This document shows positions 14,537 to 26,278 of a stretch of DNA of 42,054 nucleotides, one piece after another (position 1 is the first letter of the stretch; each line of letters opens with the position of its first letter). The stretch comes from a bacterium (GTDB lineage Bacteria > Armatimonadota > Chthonomonadetes > Chthonomonadales > Chthonomonadaceae). Below the pieces are notes generated by a model. It saw only the letters and a list, made by a program, of their open reading frames with translations, made no database searches and was not told the origin of the DNA. Position numbers and translations under genes: made by a program. The stretch is from contig OMJJ01000314.1 of the NCBI GenBank assembly GCA_900299305.1, forward strand, positions 1-42,054, given 5' to 3'.

Positions 14537-16234
14537 CTAAGAGTTTGGTTCGCGTATCGGAAGGATTTGGTCGGCTTTGATATGAGAAAGAGTTTGAACT
14601 TTGCCGGATAACCAATGAATTTCTAGGGCGTCTACCTGCTCTATCCTTCCAAGACCAAAATGGACGCGCGGATCACTGTCTCCTGCGTAGCTCTCTCCCC
14701 CTGCTAAAACCCGCATCTGTCGTTTACCTGCGATAGTTGCAATACACTGCACGCCCACTGGAGTAGTACAACCTTGCCTATTGGTGAGTTGAAGCGTTAG
14801 CCAATGTTGTGGTGTGGAATCGTTGTGTAGCAAGGTGGGGCGGTCATCCGATGCTGTAACCAGAATGTCTATGCGTCCATCATTGTCAAAGTCGGCAAAA
14901 TAGGCTCCACGATGCACTCGAACATCGTCTGAGGGAAGCGATTGTGGAGCATTATGAAAAATATGATTCTCGCCGTTCAACAAAAGTAGATTTGCCTGCT
15001 TCCACGAGGAAGCCCCATTAGCGGCTTTTGCATAGGGACTAACATGTCCATTCGCACAAAATATATCTAATACCCCTCTATTTTGTGAGTCAAAAAAGCC
15101 TGTGCCAAATCCCAAATAGGGTGTCGTCGCCTCTGCAATTCCTGTCTCACCACTTACATTCAAGAAGTAGTGCCCTTCATTCCTATAGAGGGCGTAGGGT
15201 TCATTTTGAAAGGTTGTCACAAGTATGTCTAGGTCACCATCTTCATCAAAATCCCCTACCGTAACCCCCATATTTGCCTGTTCGGTGCCTGTGATTCCGA
15301 AAGCAACGCCTTGGATCATACTCATCTCTTCAAAGGTTCCATCCCCTTTATTATGAAGCAGAGAGTTGGGTCCTAAATCATTGGCAACAAAGAGGTCTAA
15401 CTTACCATCTCCATCAAAATCTGCTGCAGCTACTCCCAAAGACCGACGATGCTCCAAAGCAACCCCTGCACGCTGAGTAATCTCGCTAAAGGTTCCGTTG
15501 CCGTTGTTATGATACAATACGTTGGTAGATGCCGTGTAGGTATTAGGAGAGCAGACATCAGGTTCCCCATGCGGACCTCTACATTGAATATCGGAATCGA
15601 CTTTCCATTCACAATAGCGCAAGACAAAAAGGTCTAACCTACCATCCCCATCGGCATCAAACCAGACCGCTCCTGTAGAGAAACCTTTCAGCCCCGTTCC
15701 CGACTTTAATGTAATATCTTCAAACGTACCATCTCCGCGATTATGATAAAGGGTATTCTTTCCATAACAACAGACATAGATATCGGTGTGTCCATCGTTA
15801 TCAAAATCTCCTGCCGCGGCGGCAATTCCATAATCGGTATCGGTATTGCCAAACGCATTTGGCGAAAGAACAAAGTGCCCATGCTTGTCGTTGAGATAGA
15901 GCCTTTGATGTTGCCGAGGGACTCCCTTCTGTTCACAAATACCAAGAGGTTTGGGCTGTGGAAAATAGATATCCATATAGCCATCCCCGTTGGCATCCAA
16001 TACGGTGGCTCCTGCCGCAACCTGCTCGACAAAGTAGCGTTGCCCACAACCTCCATGACTCTGCTGAAAGGCAAGCCCACTTTCACGCGTCTTATCTGAA
16101 AAAGAAGCAATAGGAGTTAGAGGGGTATTGATAGTAGACGGACTCGTGTTCGAGTTTGAGGAAGGCTTAGGATGACACCCCCAAATCACGCTACTTAGTA
16201 GTAGCCAGGCAATCCCTAACAGAATACGTCTCAT
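14537..16234 (-). CDS. FG-GAP/VCBS and ASPIC/UnbV lipoprotein (CRTAC1-like)
   Basis: 565 residues. The lipoprotein signal ends at LLSSVIWGC, followed by a Ser/Thr-rich tether. At least six FG-GAP-type repeats carry calcium-binding DxDxDGxxD loops (DANGDGYMDIYF, DFDNDGHTDIYV, DADGDGRLDLFV, DFDGDGKLDLFV, DFDEDGDLDILV, DFDNDGRIDILV), which should form a beta-propeller. The C-terminal 70 residues match the ASPIC/UnbV domain (GGESYAGDSDPRVHFGLGRIEQVDALEIHWLSGK). It is an outer-surface protein of unknown ligand. Its ATG overlaps the TAA of the TPR gene by one base (16234), so the two are coupled. In other bacteria this pairing with TPR proteins is common. Confidence 0.9.
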   Translation of the reverse strand: MRRILLGIAWLLLSSVIWGCHPKPSSNSNTSPSTINTPLTPIASFSDKTRESGLAFQQSHGGCGQRYFVEQVAAGATVLDANGDGYMDIYFPQPKPLGICEQKGVPRQHQRLYLNDKHGHFVLSPNAFGNTDTDYGIAAAAGDFDNDGHTDIYVCCYGKNTLYHNRGDGTFEDITLKSGTGLKGFSTGAVWFDADGDGRLDLFVLRYCEWKVDSDIQCRGPHGEPDVCSPNTYTASTNVLYHNNGNGTFSEITQRAGVALEHRRSLGVAAADFDGDGKLDLFVANDLGPNSLLHNKGDGTFEEMSMIQGVAFGITGTEQANMGVTVGDFDEDGDLDILVTTFQNEPYALYRNEGHYFLNVSGETGIAEATTPYLGFGTGFFDSQNRGVLDIFCANGHVSPYAKAANGASSWKQANLLLLNGENHIFHNAPQSLPSDDVRVHRGAYFADFDNDGRIDILVTASDDRPTLLHNDSTPQHWLTLQLTNRQGCTTPVGVQCIATIAGKRQMRVLAGGESYAGDSDPRVHFGLGRIEQVDALEIHWLSGKVQTLSHIKADQILPIREPNS

Positions 16235-17598
16235 TATGGTACGGCTCCTAACGCCTTAATGCCCTCTAATGCACGTTGATTTTTTTGCTCAAGTTGCAAT
16301 ACCATAAGATACTGGTCTCGCGAAGGACCGCGCATTCCCAGGTCACGGTATCTATCCGCAAGGATAAGGTGTAAGCCAACACTTTCAGGGTGTAACGCGC
16401 TCAGGTTTTGGAACTGTTTCAGTTGTTGGGCATCTCGAACTAAGTCTTGTGCAATTTGTGATGCCTCTTTGGCTCTCTTTGGTCTGCCAAGGCGGTTATA
16501 TATGAGTGCCAACTGTTGGTATGGGTAGGCACGATTTGGGTTGAGCGTGGCAGACTGCTCGAAAAGTTTTCTCGCCTCCTCTAAGCGATTTGCCCGAAGG
16601 CACGCAACTCCATATCTTTCCAAAAACCGCCCTGTTTTTGGGGAGAGTTGTACGGCTTTCTCAAACATTTGTAGGGCTAAAGGGAGCGCATTCGTCTCTT
16701 TGCTTTGCTGAAGCATCTGCCCCATCATGTCATAGAGTGCTGCTTCATTTGGAAATTTTTTCAAACCCTCTTCAAGCACTTTACGCCCTGTTGTCCGATC
16801 TCCCGAAGCAATATAGGAACCCGCCAGAGAGAACGTCACCGATGCTCTGTCGGGTAGAAGGGTTTGCGCTTGAGTATAGTAGGAGATGGCACTATGATAG
16901 TCACGCTGGGTGAGGCAAAGCCTCCCCAATCGGTAGGTTATCTCTCCTTTTTGGTTCCAGTTAGATAAGATACTCTCCAACTCATGGCGAGCCTCTGCCA
17001 GTTGCAACTTAAACTCGGAGCGATTAGGAAATTGGAGTGCCGCCTCCATCAAGGCAGTTCCCAATACAGCGTGGTGTGCCGAATTGTTAGGGGAGAGGCG
17101 CACCGCATTACGAGCCGCATCGGAGGCTTCGAGGTAGCGTTTTTCATGAAATAAGGCTCCTGCCAAACCTGCCCACGCTTCATCACTGTTTTTCCATTTT
17201 TGGGTGATGGTACGGTATGTAGTTTCAGCCGCAAGGAGGTTCTTTTCAGAAAAATCAAGAGAAGCTAATGCGAGCAGTGCTTTGGGGCTTTTCGGCTCCA
17301 AGGTTATTATCTCTAGGAGTTGCTTGCGTGCCTCTTTCCAATCCTGATTAGTTTGGTAGGCTTCTACCAAATCCCAATGCCGTTGAGGGTCTTTGGGTGC
17401 CTGTTGTACAGCACGGATAAGCAAGGAGATGTCGGTTTTTGAGGATGATGTTGTCGGTTGGGAAACTGGGGAGGGTTTCGTTGGGGAAGGAGGGGCAACG
17501 GTCGGATTAGCCTTGTGCTGTTGGTTTCTCACTAACAGCACAAGGCTAACAAATAAGCTGCCAAAGACCATCAAGATAGCGATACGCTTAGATTGCAT
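16234..17598 (-). CDS. membrane-anchored TPR protein
   Basis: 454 residues. An N-terminal transmembrane helix (IAILMVFGSLFVSLVLLV, residues 7-24) is followed by a Pro/Ser/Thr-rich linker to about 55 and then about ten tetratricopeptide units (for example AYPYQQLALIYNRLGRPKRAKEA). The TPR part should lie in the periplasm. A ribosome-site-like GGGTGAGAA precedes the ATG. It is translationally coupled to the FG-GAP/ASPIC lipoprotein through a TAATG overlap, so the two probably act together as a surface assembly. No enzyme domain is visible. Confidence 0.88.
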   Translation of the reverse strand: MQSKRIAILMVFGSLFVSLVLLVRNQQHKANPTVAPPSPTKPSPVSQPTTSSSKTDISLLIRAVQQAPKDPQRHWDLVEAYQTNQDWKEARKQLLEIITLEPKSPKALLALASLDFSEKNLLAAETTYRTITQKWKNSDEAWAGLAGALFHEKRYLEASDAARNAVRLSPNNSAHHAVLGTALMEAALQFPNRSEFKLQLAEARHELESILSNWNQKGEITYRLGRLCLTQRDYHSAISYYTQAQTLLPDRASVTFSLAGSYIASGDRTTGRKVLEEGLKKFPNEAALYDMMGQMLQQSKETNALPLALQMFEKAVQLSPKTGRFLERYGVACLRANRLEEARKLFEQSATLNPNRAYPYQQLALIYNRLGRPKRAKEASQIAQDLVRDAQQLKQFQNLSALHPESVGLHLILADRYRDLGMRGPSRDQYLMVLQLEQKNQRALEGIKALGAVP

Positions 17599-20132: not shown

Positions 20133-20450
20133 ATGGCAGGGGCGGGTCTGGGGGCATACACGAGCCTATTAAGGGAAATCGGTGAGCAACGAGAGGCGAT
20201 TGAAAAGCGGATAAGTCAATCCGAAGGGCAACTGAAACGCGACAGGGTATCCCCTACTGATGAAGCGGCTTTACTGGTTGCGGTGATGCAAGATATACAA
20301 GAAGCCCTGTTCGCCGACGAATTAACTTCTGCGGAGAGGCGAAACTGTCTGCAACGAATCGTGGAGCAGGTTACTCCGAATGAGAGTGAAGAGGGCGATT
20401 TTGGGGTAACCATTCGCCTAAAACCCCCTCTCTCCAGCCTCTCAAAAAGT
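20133..20450 (+). pseudogene. C-terminal relic of a site-specific (serine-type) recombinase
   Basis: The frame reads a coiled-coil stretch (LLREIGEQREAIEKRISQSEGQLKRD) and then ELTSAERRNCLQRIVEQVTP, EGDFGVTIRLKPP. This resembles the end of large serine recombinases, where a coiled coil is followed by 'eeRrellrrlVerV...v.i.f'. No catalytic N-terminal domain or zinc ribbon is found upstream, where the frame is closed by TGA at 20121. Downstream the frame runs on as antisense of the next gene, so the true end is lost or near 20450. It is likely the tail of a decayed mobile element. Confidence 0.45.
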
Positions 20451-20458
20451 TTAACCCC

Positions 20459-21607
20459 TCAAATTGTTTCGATTATCTCGATGTTGGCACGCGGTACAGT
20501 CACTTCACGTCCGTCGGCGAGTTTAGTTTGTAGTACACGTACCCACGTCTCCGATTCTACCTGTACCAGTTCGGAGGGGAGTGCGGTAACGGTGCCTAGT
20601 ATCCCGAAGTAGGGTTCACGAATGACACGAATCGGTGTACCGATATTCAGTTGTCCGCTTTGAGCATTAGATGCCTCGATGGGAGTAGCGTTTTTTAAGG
20701 GGACAATCACTTCGGGGCGAATAACACCAGCGCGAATCTGCGTCGCGCCATTGATAGAAGCAACCTGCCCTTGTAGCGATTTCAGCAGTTGGAAGGTACG
20801 CTCCGCCATATTGATAGTTCCGAAGCCCTCCGTTACTATGAGGGTGAAGGGAATGGCTTCGTGTCCGGTTATCGCGACCCCAATATCGTAGCCGGGAGAA
20901 TTCAAGGCAACCGCAAGATAGTCCATGAGGTCTCTATCTACCACTCCACCTACCACAATCCCAAGCACTCCACACTCTGCCGCTTTGCGTAACCCCGCCC
21001 CCGATATGTTCGAGCCGCCGATGATGATTTTGCCTTTGTGGGAGGGGGTGATATTGGTGTCGGTAATGGGGTCGGCGTGGCTATTGGTAACCGTTACCAG
21101 TTCTGCTTGCCGCTCACCACCTACCCCAAAGATACCCTGCACCAATGCACCTTCACAGGTAACAACCACGCCCTCACCCGCGATTACTCTGCTGATAGTA
21201 CCCTCTACATAGGCATCTTTTTCAATGGGAGTAGCGGCTTGCCGAATACCGACGTGACCCGTGGTGGAGGAGACGAGTTCTACCGTACCCGTAACAGGAG
21301 AGCGCACTTCCGAGCGGAAAAAGCGTCCCAAAAGCCCTTTGGTCTCGCCAAGCAGGTCGTTTTGCGAAACCTTGTCACCTATCTTGACCTTGAGTAGACC
21401 CACAACATCCGTAGGTTCTACACCCAGTTTTTCTGCTACCTTCACCGTCTGCATAATTCCGGGTATCTCAGTACGTGCGACTACCGTTCCCGAAGAAACG
21501 GTGTCGCCCTGCTTTACAAGCACATCGCCCTTGAGGGGCAGACGGCGTACCTTCTCGATGGTAGTGTGTGCGCTAACTCTTAGTCCGGGGGTGTATGCAG
21601 TTCCCAA
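20459..21607 (-). CDS. barrel-sandwich/KOW-like protein of the mutL operon
   Basis: 382 residues, no signal. The N-terminal 120 residues contain repeated Gly/Val hairpins with 'GDxVxxG' turns (LKGDVLVKQGDTVSSGTVVA, KIGDKVSQNDLLGE, SPVTGTVELVSSTTGHVGI), as in lipoyl-like barrel-sandwich hybrids. The middle (GKIIIGGSNISGAGLRKAAECGVLGIVVGGV) looks like a separate alpha/beta domain. The C-terminus has a KOW/SH3-like stretch (IGTPIRVIREPYFGILGTVTALP). The start is TTG with GAGGAG upstream. It is the last gene of the minus-strand mutL operon, 29 bases after the pilin-like gene. I do not know its function. The fold suggests a scaffold or a carrier-binding protein. Confidence 0.75.
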   Translation of the reverse strand: MGTAYTPGLRVSAHTTIEKVRRLPLKGDVLVKQGDTVSSGTVVARTEIPGIMQTVKVAEKLGVEPTDVVGLLKVKIGDKVSQNDLLGETKGLLGRFFRSEVRSPVTGTVELVSSTTGHVGIRQAATPIEKDAYVEGTISRVIAGEGVVVTCEGALVQGIFGVGGERQAELVTVTNSHADPITDTNITPSHKGKIIIGGSNISGAGLRKAAECGVLGIVVGGVVDRDLMDYLAVALNSPGYDIGVAITGHEAIPFTLIVTEGFGTINMAERTFQLLKSLQGQVASINGATQIRAGVIRPEVIVPLKNATPIEASNAQSGQLNIGTPIRVIREPYFGILGTVTALPSELVQVESETWVRVLQTKLADGREVTVPRANIEIIETI

Positions 21608-21636
21608 AGGCTTGCTTCTCCTCTTCTAACAGATGT

Positions 21637-22287
21637 TTACGGGCTGGTTTGAAAATCTTGTTTGGTGCGCTGTTCGATGCGCCCACTGGCGAGTACCACC
21701 AACGAAGTCGCCCCTTTGGGGTCGCTGGTAAAGTGTGGAAAGTCGAGGTGCTTCCCCAGTTTATCCGCCTCCATCCCTTTTTGGCGAGGAAGCAAGGCGT
21801 GTTCGTTCAGTTTTGCACCCACCTTTTCCACCAGTAGTACCAGTTCGTTGGGTGCCATATCTTTTTGCCTATCGTCTTTGTTGGTAGGTTCTAGGTTGTA
21901 CCCTGCCGCCGCCTCGTTGTACACATAGCCGATGTCTTCACCATCACCGGGTCCTCTCAGGTACGACATGGCACCACCGGGAGTATTCGGGGGGGCATGG
22001 AGGTAGCCCGCCGCGAGCTCTGCCCATCGTTCAGAGGGAGGAAGGCGACCATCCCAGTCTTGTGCATAAGTCGCAAGGGCTTTGTATAGATTAAGCAGGT
22101 TGTTTCTGCCGATAGTGATGTCGCGTTGAGACTTAAAGTTCAGATAGACACGGTATCCCACCGGCAAAAAGATAAGAACTAACATCAACACGAAAGCGTA
22201 ACTAAGGCGTGTCAGGAGGCGTTGGTCTAGCCTCAATGTCGCTTTTTTACTGGGGCGTTCCGGTGACGGGTCGGTTACGTCGCTCAT
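21637..22287 (-). CDS. membrane protein with pilin-like ectodomain, no prepilin signal
   Basis: 216 residues from the ATG at 22287, which overlaps the TGA of the methyltransferase gene (ATGA) and has GGAAGGAAG upstream. After about 30 polar residues there is one transmembrane helix (LSYAFVLMLVLIFLPVGYRVYL). Then comes NNLLNLYKALATYAQDWDGRLPPSERWAELAAGYL, strikingly like the post-helix part of the prepilin-like proteins (compare [19 protein letters not shown] at 18017-18769). It lacks the GFTLIE cleavage motif, so it should stay as a simple membrane protein. Function unknown. Confidence 0.78.
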   Translation of the reverse strand: MSDVTDPSPERPSKKATLRLDQRLLTRLSYAFVLMLVLIFLPVGYRVYLNFKSQRDITIGRNNLLNLYKALATYAQDWDGRLPPSERWAELAAGYLHAPPNTPGGAMSYLRGPGDGEDIGYVYNEAAAGYNLEPTNKDDRQKDMAPNELVLLVEKVGAKLNEHALLPRQKGMEADKLGKHLDFPHFTSDPKGATSLVVLASGRIEQRTKQDFQTSP

Positions 22288-23147
22288 ACGTGCTTCCTTC
22301 CATGATGTGAGGGGCGGGTGCAACGTGCCGTGTAGTAGTACATCAGCACACCAGATAGCCCCTCCACATCCATAAATTCGGTAAGCATTTTGTGGAACTC
22401 TGGCTTGGAGTAGCGGTAGTAGTAGATGCCCGTGCGATGCTCCCCCTCTTTTTTATCGAAGAGGCGCGTATAGAGCGAATGTTTGTAGGCAGAGATAACG
22501 ATGGTCGCTTTGGGCTGGGAGGTACGTGCCATTTCGGAGACCATCATCCCGCGCCCCTTAGCGGTAGGAACGTGCTCCAGTACACCACACGAGACTGCCA
22601 CCGTAAAAATCTCGCTCTCTAGGGGCATGGCGCAGTTATCTGCCTGTATCAGATCGACGTTGGTAATCCCCTCTGCCTCCAACTTTCTACGGCATCGTTT
22701 TAGCGATTCGATAGAGAAGTCTACCGCGATAACGCTCTTACATTTGGGGGCAAACACACGGGTCATTCGCCCCGTTCCACAACCTGCCTCTAGTAATACG
22801 TCGGTTGGGCGCAGTTTCATTTGCCCAAGCGTGTACGGAATCTCCACTTTTCCAAAAAGGCGGAGGTTTTTCATCTTGTCGTAGTCATCTGCCTCGTTGT
22901 CTCTCGCCGCCATTTCGCTCTTTTTCTGCCGAATCTCCGCCTCAATTTCGGGGGTTATCTGCTGGTCGTGGAGTTCTTTTGGCATCATACGGGTAATGCC
23001 GTCCTCTATGGGGAAGTGTGAGCCGCACCCCGCACAGTGGATAAACCCCGTAAGAGTACGTCCTTGCTTTTCGGTAAGGGTCTCTAGTTCTAGGGGGTTG
23101 GGGCAACGGTTGGGGCAACGTAGTAGTGGAAAAGTTTCCTGTCTCAT
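22284..23147 (-). CDS. SAM-dependent methyltransferase with zinc-ribbon N-terminus
   Basis: 287 residues. The N-terminal 50 resemble a Trm112-like zinc ribbon (Cys11, Cys15, Cys38, Cys41, then HFPIEDGITRMMP). A class I Rossmann methyltransferase domain follows: motif I LLEAGCGTGRMTRVF (about 119-133), acidic VIAVDFS, then LIQADNCAMPL and VSCGVLEHVP. The target is not predictable; the ribbon-plus-methyltransferase form is common in lipid, quinone and sugar methylation. It follows mutL by 21 bases and overlaps the next gene, so it is operonic. Confidence 0.85.
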   Translation of the reverse strand: MRQETFPLLRCPNRCPNPLELETLTEKQGRTLTGFIHCAGCGSHFPIEDGITRMMPKELHDQQITPEIEAEIRQKKSEMAARDNEADDYDKMKNLRLFGKVEIPYTLGQMKLRPTDVLLEAGCGTGRMTRVFAPKCKSVIAVDFSIESLKRCRRKLEAEGITNVDLIQADNCAMPLESEIFTVAVSCGVLEHVPTAKGRGMMVSEMARTSQPKATIVISAYKHSLYTRLFDKKEGEHRTGIYYYRYSKPEFHKMLTEFMDVEGLSGVLMYYYTARCTRPSHHGRKHV

Positions 23148-23168
23148 GGTAGCGGCAGACTGCGGCTC

Positions 23169-25004
23169 CTATTCTGCGGTGGGAATGTTCATGGCGTGGA
23201 GCCACTCTTTTAGTTTGGCAATACGTGCCGTGTCGTCGGCAGGTAGTACGATAGAACGCCCCCGTGTGTCGATAATGATACCCGACACACCGCCCTGCAC
23301 CTTTTGGCGTATCTCTTTGCCCTTACCTGCACCCAAGTCGAAGTTACGGGTGGGGGTAACGGTGATGTCGGCACTCTCTGGCTCTCCGTCATTGCCATTT
23401 TTGAACCCAAGTGGGTAGACCTTAATGGCTCCGAACGGAATACTCTCCGTCTTACCCTGAAACTCTACGGTAACGCACGGCTCTCCCTCTTTGCCTGTGC
23501 CTACAGGGGCGATACAGGTTCCTAAATAGATAAGGCAGTCGCGCTCGAAGACCTGTGTGGCGGCGGCGGGGTGTACCATTGAGAGGACACCGAGTTGGGG
23601 CATCATAAAGATAGAGTCGACGGTGAGGAGGGTAACGCCTTCGGGTTGGTAGGCATCCATCATCATCAGGGCAGACTGTTCACGGCGGGGCGCATGAGAG
23701 AGAACCCCACCCGACCCCACAATCATGTCCAAAGACATCATATCTACAAGGGTTTTACCCGTCCCTTGTGTGTCGAAGATGTTTCCGATGTTCTTCTCGG
23801 TAGCCACACCTGTAAGCCCACGCGCTAACGACTTGTGATGCTCAAAAGCGAGGCGCAGTGCTTCACGGCTAACGGCTTGCTCTATCTGCAAATCCATAAG
23901 GCGTTGGGGGATGGTGGTAGGGCGAATCATCTTGTTGCGGAGTTGGTTTCGCAAATCGGCATCAGAGGTGTGGAAGGGTAGCCACCGTTTGATGTTCTCT
24001 ACCTTCGCTTCGGTGAGGACGTTACAGATAGAGTAGGACATTCCGAGGTTCGCCGATACGGTACGGTTGAAGATGCTTTTGAAGACCGAGAAAACGTCGG
24101 TAGTCGCGCCGCCAATGTCTACTCCCAGAACATTGATACTGCGCTGTTCGGCTATCGCTTGCATAATTTTGCCTACCGCGTTGGGGGTAGACATGATGTC
24201 GGCACTCGTCCAAGTGGTAAGCTTGCCATAGCCGGGAGCCTGTTGCATTACGTGTTCTAGGAAGAGGTCGTGAATGGCTTCACGGGCAGGGAGTAGGTTC
24301 TCTCTGTCCATCGTGGGGCGTAGGTTATCTACCTGCCGCAGAGCCACTTTACTACCGATAAGCTCCTCTACCTGTGCAAACGCCTGTTTGTTTCCCGCGT
24401 AGATAACAGGGAGTTTTAGCCCAATACCGAGGCGTGGGGTAGGGTCGGCAGAGACGAGCATCTCGGACATCTCTACGAGGTGCGAAACGGTTCCGCCGTC
24501 GGTTCCTCCCGACATAAGTATCATGTCGGGGCGTAACTGGCGTAGCCGCTCCACGCGCTCATGCTCTTTGCGGTTGTCATCTACGGCGATAACGTCGATG
24601 ATAATTGCTCCCGCACCTAGCGCGGCGCGTTGTGCGCTTTCGGCACTCATCTTCATTACGACCCCAGAGACCGTCATCTGCAAGCCGCCACCTGCGCTAG
24701 AGGTAGAGAGGTAGAGGTCTACTCCTGTCTTCTCATCTTGCGCGGGTGTTTGCGGTCTGCCTTCACCACCGATAAGCGATTTACCGCTGAGTTCTTCGAT
24801 TTCGCGTACTGCGTTCACCACACCCACCGTTACATCATCGAATGGGGCTTCTACCGTAGTGGGAGCCTCTCCGCGCACCACAAGGCGGTACTCGCCTGTA
24901 GGCTGTTGTTCGATAAGAATGGCTTTGGTGGTGGTGCTTCCGCAGTCGGTAGCGAGAATAGAACGGGCGCGGGTAGCGTCTTTTAGTACGGGATTTTCGC
25001 TCAT
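23169..25004 (-). CDS. glmL: glutamate mutase L-type ASKHA ATPase (MutL/GlmL family)
   Basis: 611 residues. It has two phosphate-binding motifs of the ASKHA (actin/Hsp70/hexokinase) fold: ATDCGSTTTKAILIE near the N-terminus and GVDIGGATTDVFSVF at about 295. The segments MILMSGGTDGGTVSHLVEM and GVLSHAPRR are typical of the GlmL/MutL family. In clostridia this protein is encoded between the two subunits of the B12-dependent glutamate mutase and is thought to help it. Here no mutase subunit is in the window; the companions are a methyltransferase and two structural proteins. A promoter with a perfect minus-strand TATAAT lies at 25057-25062. This family is not the DNA mismatch protein MutL. Confidence 0.85.
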   Translation of the reverse strand: MSENPVLKDATRARSILATDCGSTTTKAILIEQQPTGEYRLVVRGEAPTTVEAPFDDVTVGVVNAVREIEELSGKSLIGGEGRPQTPAQDEKTGVDLYLSTSSAGGGLQMTVSGVVMKMSAESAQRAALGAGAIIIDVIAVDDNRKEHERVERLRQLRPDMILMSGGTDGGTVSHLVEMSEMLVSADPTPRLGIGLKLPVIYAGNKQAFAQVEELIGSKVALRQVDNLRPTMDRENLLPAREAIHDLFLEHVMQQAPGYGKLTTWTSADIMSTPNAVGKIMQAIAEQRSINVLGVDIGGATTDVFSVFKSIFNRTVSANLGMSYSICNVLTEAKVENIKRWLPFHTSDADLRNQLRNKMIRPTTIPQRLMDLQIEQAVSREALRLAFEHHKSLARGLTGVATEKNIGNIFDTQGTGKTLVDMMSLDMIVGSGGVLSHAPRREQSALMMMDAYQPEGVTLLTVDSIFMMPQLGVLSMVHPAAATQVFERDCLIYLGTCIAPVGTGKEGEPCVTVEFQGKTESIPFGAIKVYPLGFKNGNDGEPESADITVTPTRNFDLGAGKGKEIRQKVQGGVSGIIIDTRGRSIVLPADDTARIAKLKEWLHAMNIPTAE

Positions 25005-25141: not shown

Positions 25142-26278
25142 TCAGTTTTTAGAAAATGCCGAAATGTGATTGGCTTCGAGAACGCACCGCAGTCTCACTT
25201 CATTTATGTTGCTGTGCCGCCAAAGCACCTTACCTTGGCTACTAAGGAGGTAGTTGGTTCCACCGGACATTGCACGGTAGGCATTGGAGACCTGCTCCTT
25301 ACCGCCCCCGTCTTTCCCATCTAACCCCATCGGGTACGGTATCTGATATTTTACAAGAAAATCCTTTGCTTTCTCACGGCTGTCGGTAAGGTTAATGGCA
25401 ACTACAGCAAGCCCCTTGTCCTTCAGTTTGTGTATTTCTTTGACTGTAGGGAGTTCTAGAACACAAGCACCGCACTCCGCAAAGGTAAAGTTAAGGAGTA
25501 CGGCACGATTTGACTTAAGCAGATCTGCCAACGAGAGGGGGGAACCGGTTGGGGTCTTTAGGTCGAATAGGGGGGCTGTTGCGCCTACCGGAAGAAAGTC
25601 ATGGTATGGGTTTTCCTTATCCGTAGTGATATGCACCGTCGCTGGAGGCGTGTAGGCGCACTGTTGTGGTGTCAACGGTACGTTTAGGCGTAGATCCCGA
25701 ACCCACAACTTCTGCGCGGGGGCGGTGGTATTGGTACTCTTTATCGCCTCCATCTCGATTCCTTCCAGTAAGCCGCTCTGACCGATGTAGAAGGTTGTCG
25801 CGCTACGACCGAAGGAGGGAGGGCATTTCACAACCTGATAGGTCACATTATCTCGTTGGTAGGCTCCGGCAAAGGTGGGATGCACAAAGGAGCGTAACTG
25901 ACCCGGCTCTAAAAGGTAGGTTAGATACAGTATTGTCGCGGATATATTGGCAAAGTCGTAGAGTTCTTCATAGTCCATAACGTTACCAGAGTTCGAGGCT
26001 TCCTCCACAGAAACGAGATGTCTGCCCTGAGATGCGATAACGCTCTTCTTGCCATTGGCATCTGGAAAATTGAGAAGGATGATACTGGGCTTCTTCATGC
26101 GTAATGTGCCGGTGATGGGGGAATCTGATCTGAGTAGCACTGCCTCCACCGTTTGTGTTTGCTGGGCAATCCTCTCAGCACGATGAAGCAACTGTTCGCC
26201 TTTCGTGTCGGCATGCATCGGGGTAGAAGCGACCAGTATCAACAAACTCAGCAAGCAGCTTCCCACATATTGTCTCAT
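25142..26278 (-). CDS. secreted LolA-like/thioredoxin-fold fusion (TlpA-like)
   Basis: 378 residues. A signal peptide (CLLSLLILVASTPMHA, cut near 23) leads to an N-terminal half like LolA/DUF2092 lipoprotein-carrier folds (RAERIAQQTQTVEAVL, GTLRMKKPSIILLNF, GLLEGIEMEAI) up to about 215. A TlpA/redoxin domain follows, with the active site CGAC (Cys269, Cys272) in NFTFAECGACVLELP and the LPVGATAPLFDLKTPTG lead-in. It should act in the periplasm as a thiol-disulfide protein, with the first domain perhaps binding a hydrophobic partner. It shares a promoter-like block with glmL. The active site with Glu before Cys is unusual but workable. Confidence 0.88.
   Translation of the reverse strand: MRQYVGSCLLSLLILVASTPMHADTKGEQLLHRAERIAQQTQTVEAVLLRSDSPITGTLRMKKPSIILLNFPDANGKKSVIASQGRHLVSVEEASNSGNVMDYEELYDFANISATILYLTYLLEPGQLRSFVHPTFAGAYQRDNVTYQVVKCPPSFGRSATTFYIGQSGLLEGIEMEAIKSTNTTAPAQKLWVRDLRLNVPLTPQQCAYTPPATVHITTDKENPYHDFLPVGATAPLFDLKTPTGSPLSLADLLKSNRAVLLNFTFAECGACVLELPTVKEIHKLKDKGLAVVAINLTDSREKAKDFLVKYQIPYPMGLDGKDGGGKEQVSNAYRAMSGGTNYLLSSQGKVLWRHSNINEVRLRCVLEANHISAFSKN

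Follow-up and report, generated by a model that had tools for sequence, protein, structure and literature searches.

A GlmL-like ATPase in Armatimonadota genomes without glutamate mutase and its candidate six-gene membrane module

MutL/GlmL is described in one report (PMC4682846) as a chaperone that reactivates glutamate mutase. Two NCBIfam models represent the closest described systems: the GlmL equivalog NF040745, which covers the GlmL/MutL of glutamate mutase, and NF040744, which covers a GlmL-related ornithine degradation protein. A looser likeness is offered by MreB-MreC-MreD and PilM-PilN-PilO, assemblies of an ASKHA protein with membrane proteins in which a cytosolic actin-fold ATPase is accompanied by bitopic and polytopic partners.

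The window analyzed here, a stretch of 42,054 nucleotides, is contig C314 of a 4.47-Mb assembly that is 95% complete (the host genome). The host belongs to Armatimonadota, its nearest named records being Chthonomonas-like MAGs. The window contains four closely packed open reading frames, all on the minus strand. The first encodes a MutL/GlmL-type ASKHA ATPase of 611 aa (23169..25004), referred to below as MutL. After a gap of 21 bases follows a zinc-ribbon class I methyltransferase of 287 aa (22284..23147), which is joined through an ATGA stop/start overlap to a single-TM pilin-like protein (21637..22323). The latter is annotated as a 228-aa ORF, but its true start is probably at 22287, giving 216 aa. 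After another 29 bases comes a barrel protein of 382 aa (20459..21607). The first-pass annotation had described these four genes as tightly packed, and the junctions bear this out.

The window ATPase compared with genuine GlmL

The window MutL scores far above the PF13941 gathering cut-off (425.5 bits versus 27), and the match covers profile positions 1-450 of 450. However, it falls below the cut-offs of the narrower models, with 227.6 bits versus 475 for NF040745 and 176.9 versus 204.05 for the GlmL-family model. It belongs to the same family as NF040744 (206.8 bits) but lies far under the cut-off of 600 for that model, and, unlike in the NF040744 system, no aminomutase is found among the four B12-binding matches of the host genome. 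A plasmid search with MutL returned 10 records, all 26-29% identical, and those with annotation were labeled GlmL or glutamate mutase L. A PDB sequence search with MutL gave no match.

Genuine GlmLs and the window MutL share 28-32% identity spanning the first ~490 residues of the latter, and the ATP motifs are common to both. The stretches DCGSTTT (D20), DIGGATTD (D296), and GSGG (G430), which we take to be the phosphate-1, phosphate-2, and adenosine motifs of ASKHA ATPases, are invariant across 52 aligned MutLs. By these residues the ATP site of the window MutL is intact, and the protein is a predicted ATPase. The two groups differ in length: four control GlmLs taken from plasmids have 461-467 aa versus 611 aa for the window MutL, which carries a C-terminal extension of ~120 aa (residues about 492-611). 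An extension of 111-130 residues is present in 25/25 aligned Armatimonadota MutLs, picked out of 121 loci, and is absent from the control GlmLs. The Armatimonadota MutLs and genuine GlmLs also form two clans in a phylogenetic tree, with a split support of 100/99; because the outer rows of the tree are long-branched, we rely on the MutL/GlmL split only. Thus, the window MutL shares the PF13941 family and the ASKHA ATP motifs with the GlmL of NF040745 systems, but as judged from sequence it stands apart from them in its separate clan and its C-terminal extension, in having membrane partners (see below), and in the absence of a glutamate mutase.

The first-pass annotation had read the locus as a GlmL-type gene without glutamate mutase and had proposed a search of the genome for mutase genes. 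We found GlmE (PF06368, the large mutase subunit) in none of 61 genomes, that is, neither in the host genome nor in the 60 others, whereas MutL exceeded its cut-off in 52 of the same 61. The proposal that this GlmL-type ATPase has a job apart from glutamate mutase is therefore well supported. As a control, genuine plasmid GlmLs were flanked by glmS and glmE in all three annotated records; the fourth record has no annotation at its flanks and is not part of this count. The four B12-binding matches of the host genome all lie on contigs other than the window's, and judging by their translations we take them to be methionine synthase, two radical-SAM B12 proteins, and a MerR-type B12 regulator. 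No protein of the module defined below matched a B12-binding family. These results show that automatic "GlmL" labels in Armatimonadota are no pointer to glutamate fermentation.

Constant and variable partners of MutL

MutL has a strict partner in the barrel protein, whose gene is present in 53/61 genomes. The barrel protein matches PF13375 (RnfC_N) weakly, under the gathering cut-off (24.1 versus 25.6 bits), and the barrel protein of another locus, L039, scores 14.8. An AF2 model (pLDDT 81) suggests an N-terminal barrel-sandwich part, a middle swivelling-type domain, and a C-terminal KOW/SH3 domain. By VIA-align, the middle domain of the model gives matches with Z of 8.5-8.8 and rmsd of 2.7-3.9 over 101-128 residues, to what we take to be swivelling-type domains. 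The C-terminus matches a KOW/SH3 fold with Z of 9.2 and rmsd of 1.0 over 51 residues, a match of fold only that implies no function. KOW domains are also among the weak matches of a PDB sequence search with the barrel protein, and a Foldseek search with the model found no match along the whole length. Among 20 loci in which the barrel gene occurs apart from MutL, no recurring pathway was seen in the neighboring genes; a response regulator lies near such MutL-free barrel loci in two families.

Several distant MutL-barrel loci adjoin four extra genes, DUF6754, c41, c44, and c42. The host genome carries these four together on contig C101, away from the window. The C101 DUF6754 protein is a full member of PF20539 (301.3 bits versus a gathering cut-off of 27), a family without a described function and with no mention in the literature that we searched, while c41, c42, and c44 belong to no family in Pfam or NCBIfam. 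Searches of these two databases showed no sequence relation of the partners to those in MreB-MreC-MreD or PilM-PilN-PilO assemblies. Of 40 DUF6754 loci, 37, including that of the host genome, have the full order DUF6754-c41-c44-c42; the three exceptions are L187, which is cut by a contig end, L176, which is interrupted, and L194, which has the first two genes only. A TM protein of ~160 aa is encoded upstream of DUF6754 in 26/40 loci, and a protein of ~110 aa in 31/40. A simple hydropathy scan with a positive-inside reading predicts that the DUF6754 domain is cytosolic, that c44 has a soluble domain outside, and that c41 and c42 are multi-TM proteins. A PDB sequence search with c44 gave chance-level matches only, no relative of DUF6754 or c44 was confirmed on viral contigs, and no DUF6754 was found on plasmids. 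The structure model of DUF6754, built from two sequences, was weak (pLDDT 58), and we set aside the top Foldseek hit of this model, a universal stress protein (E 1.3e-3). Nor do we claim homology between DUF6754 and c44, which formed the best profile pair (P 0.0045) yet with a probability of 7.7%.

MutL and these partners are co-inherited. Among the 61 genomes, MutL is present in 52, the barrel gene in 53, DUF6754 in 52, and c44 in 51; all four occur together in 49, none in 7, and a mixed set in 5, whose completeness is 64-78% (G012, G019, and G030), 80% (G036), and 92% (G051). A draw of 161 genomes with completeness of at least 90%, 51 of which are also in the 61-genome set, gave MutL in 150 and DUF6754 in 148, with both in 147 and neither in 10. 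The two genes thus agree in 157/161 genomes, the exceptions being MutL alone in G051, G070, and G102 and DUF6754 alone in G063 (Fisher 1.3e-12, for related species that are non-independent). The genomes in which the genes are jointly absent represent four or more lineages (f1 g2/g4/g9; f7; f11 g76; f14 g102), and among them two 1.5-Mb genomes, G153 and G154, are without the module though the rest of their family carries it. As far as gene content can tell, the components are kept together and lost together, and the best reading is that the module is nearly universal in Armatimonadota yet dispensable. Since it is kept in about nine-tenths of near-complete genomes and lost as a block, it must do something substantial.

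Physical linkage points the same way. Of 51 genomes with both MutL and the barrel gene, 30 have the two on a single contig at most 4 kb apart. All six genes are contiguous in 11 loci from distant families (L039, L057, L074, L111, L173, and L262-L267), and two further loci, L268 and L269, are cut by a contig end but keep the first five genes, the fifth being partial in L269. Both arrangements were seen, MutL-barrel-cassette and cassette-MutL-barrel. We regard it as close to certain that a six-gene module, comprising MutL, barrel, DUF6754, c41, c44, and c42, exists. No recurrent neighbors point to a pathway, and no work on a MutL/DUF6754 module was found in the literature searched, which consisted mostly of papers open without subscription.

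In contrast to the barrel protein, the methyltransferase and the pilin-like protein are accessory components limited to certain lineages. A class I domain is present in the methyltransferase (Methyltransf_25, 62 bits), along with an N-terminus that is weakly Trm112-like (Trm112p, 15.3 bits versus a cut-off of 22). At E<=1e-40 it is found in 27/61 genomes, versus 51-53/61 for barrel, DUF6754, and c44. Its gene lies near MutL in at least 10 of 105 distinct MutL loci, the pilin-like gene in at least 19, and the barrel gene in at least 27 (the latter two by plain BLAST clustering); all three counts are lower bounds because many of the stretches end early. For the pilin-like gene we use this earlier BLAST-cluster count, as its HMM family (c7) drifted and absorbed general prepilins. 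The best 16 methyltransferase matches all adjoin MutL or barrel, the gene lies immediately upstream of barrel in two further families, and at L251 it overlaps the barrel gene by 8 bp. The pilin-like protein has one TM segment (43-61 of the 228-aa ORF) and no Pfam match at E<=0.1, hence no prepilin methylation motif PF07963; it contains what we take to be a DUF1559-like stretch. The first-pass annotation had coupled all four window genes and proposed to survey their co-occurrence, adding that a glutamate mutase strictly co-occurring with the ATPase, together with variation of the other three genes, would count against its proposal. What we found is no such mutase and variation in two of the three: the coupling survives for MutL and barrel and is lost for the methyltransferase and the pilin-like protein. 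The idea that the unit consists of the four window neighbors finds no support here: the constant partners of MutL are the barrel gene and four membrane genes on another contig, invisible from the window. In our inference the genes naturally form a single six-gene operon, which was split in the window lineage, with the MutL-barrel half then gaining other genes.

Flagellar genes lie downstream of MutL in Fimbriimonadales, and flagellar rod genes are also close by in the window. We considered a flagellar link and rejected it because FliG does not follow the module: FliG, our negative control, is present in 35/61 genomes without association with MutL (p 0.31) and in four of the seven genomes that lack the module.

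A possible envelope machine and its alternatives

Based on these observations, we think it probable that all six proteins assemble into a single inner-membrane machine that acts on an envelope component, with MutL as its cytosolic ATPase. MutL would be the motor, its lobes closing upon ATP. The C-terminal domain of MutL and the barrel protein, an adaptor with its swivelling-type domain and an SH3/KOW domain for docking, would pull on the domain that DUF6754 exposes to the cytosol, DUF6754 being the cytosolic face of the membrane part. The membrane core of c41 and c42 could then relay the movement to c44, the outer face, whose soluble domain is predicted to lie beyond the membrane. Its likely use would be to assemble, remodel, or transport some component of the envelope at the expense of ATP, much as GlmL-type reactivases remodel their mutase (PMC4682846). 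We picture the methyltransferase and the pilin-like protein as clients or modifiers peculiar to certain lineages, with the methyltransferase perhaps modifying a client or some part of the module. We are evenly divided over the fuller proposition that this is an undescribed six-protein membrane ATPase system, nearly phylum-wide, in which an ATPase recruited from B12 reactivases drives an envelope machine by transmitting force or conformational change outward from the cytosol, with the divergent copy at L173 (see below) perhaps from another phylum. Although about nine in ten near-complete Armatimonadota genomes carry the gene set, no function is known for five of its six products, and the name of the sixth misleads. 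The module provides a defined protein set that could serve, in cultured species, to test for an ATP-driven membrane complex of a new kind.

MutL could instead be a nucleotide-switched scaffold in the manner of FtsA, MreB, or PilM, recruiting membrane proteins and not driving work. An ASKHA-type, cytosolic, soluble protein with bitopic and polytopic partners would suit such a role. However, genes for cell shape, division, or pili are never recurrent beside MutL, and we know of no relative within the GlmL clan that forms filaments. We therefore consider a scaffold unlikely, though worth keeping in mind. It is somewhat more doubtful still that MutL keeps its ancestral job and the module reactivates another radical or corrinoid enzyme, a membrane-linked client. 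To our knowledge, all characterized GlmL-type relatives serve adenosylcobalamin enzymes, and the host genome, with its presumed methionine synthase, uses B12. Yet no module protein matches a B12-binding family, the B12-binding proteins of the host are encoded on other contigs, and four of the partners of MutL are membrane proteins.

A unit made of the four window genes, with the methyltransferase and the pilin-like protein as core parts, is highly improbable: the tight packing with its ATGA overlap, the methyltransferase-barrel overlap in another family, and the position of the 16 best methyltransferase matches speak for it, but the patchy occurrence of these two genes beside the steady presence of barrel, DUF6754, and c44 speaks against it. 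That MutL is an ordinary GlmL reactivating an adenosylcobalamin-dependent glutamate mutase, as its PF13941 match, its identity to genuine GlmL, and the common ATP motifs might suggest, has hardly any probability left and is already refuted by the lack of GlmE, the scores below both GlmL cut-offs, and the glmS-glmE setting and missing C-terminal extension of genuine GlmLs, unless the 5% absent from the assembly contains glmE and the gene was also overlooked in 60 relatives.

A divergent copy of the module

One of the loci with all six genes is a divergent copy (L173) in the MAG G029, which has 6% contamination. It lies next to genes that we read as FolC and a phosphomannomutase. Its MutL is 30% identical to the window MutL and keeps the C-terminal extension, but the second phosphate motif is degenerate, so ATP hydrolysis is perhaps not needed everywhere. 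The c44 protein of this copy has a zinc-ribbon-like N-terminal extension. The copy may be contamination from another phylum; its style strikes us as reminiscent of Chloroflexota.

Genes bordering MutL and the barrel gene

Immediately upstream of MutL, on the same minus strand, lies a gene for an AhpC-TSA/TlpA-like thioredoxin-domain protein (25142-26278), the N-terminal region of which has no Pfam match. At the other end, the barrel gene is overlapped at its 3' end by a plus-strand open reading frame (20133-20612), the translation of which we take to resemble a C-terminal serine recombinase fragment. Judging from its sequence, this reading frame is perhaps a mobile-element scar adjoining the module. 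Elsewhere in the window, two genes lie back to back on the minus strand (14537-17598) and overlap by one base; one encodes a TPR protein, the other an FG-GAP/ASPIC-UnbV protein.

Genes accompanying the cassette in relatives

Two additional genes are conserved upstream of DUF6754, at L166 and others among the 40 loci fetched around it: one encodes a transmembrane protein of ~160 amino acids (26 loci), and the other a protein of ~110 amino acids with the conserved stretch LFLEMHKP (31 loci). Neither protein has a Pfam family. In the genome search for the cassette protein c44, matches with one internal stop codon were reported in six Armatimonadota genomes (G020, G025, G033, G037, G047, and G060).

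Barrel and GlmL-like genes apart from the module MutL

At loci L240-L242, L254, and L255, where the barrel gene is separate from MutL, the next gene encodes a response regulator, an arrangement found in two families. From its sequence we presume this regulator to be OmpR-type, and one of the two families presumably also has a PAS-type sensor. One Armatimonadota genome, G070, carries a second, shorter GlmL-like gene (L260, contig C75, 2-1453; PF13941, 493 bits) in addition to the module MutL (L261). Unlike the module MutL, the L260 protein lacks the C-terminal extension; contig C75 begins at this gene, and therefore a mutase neighbor on that side would not be visible.
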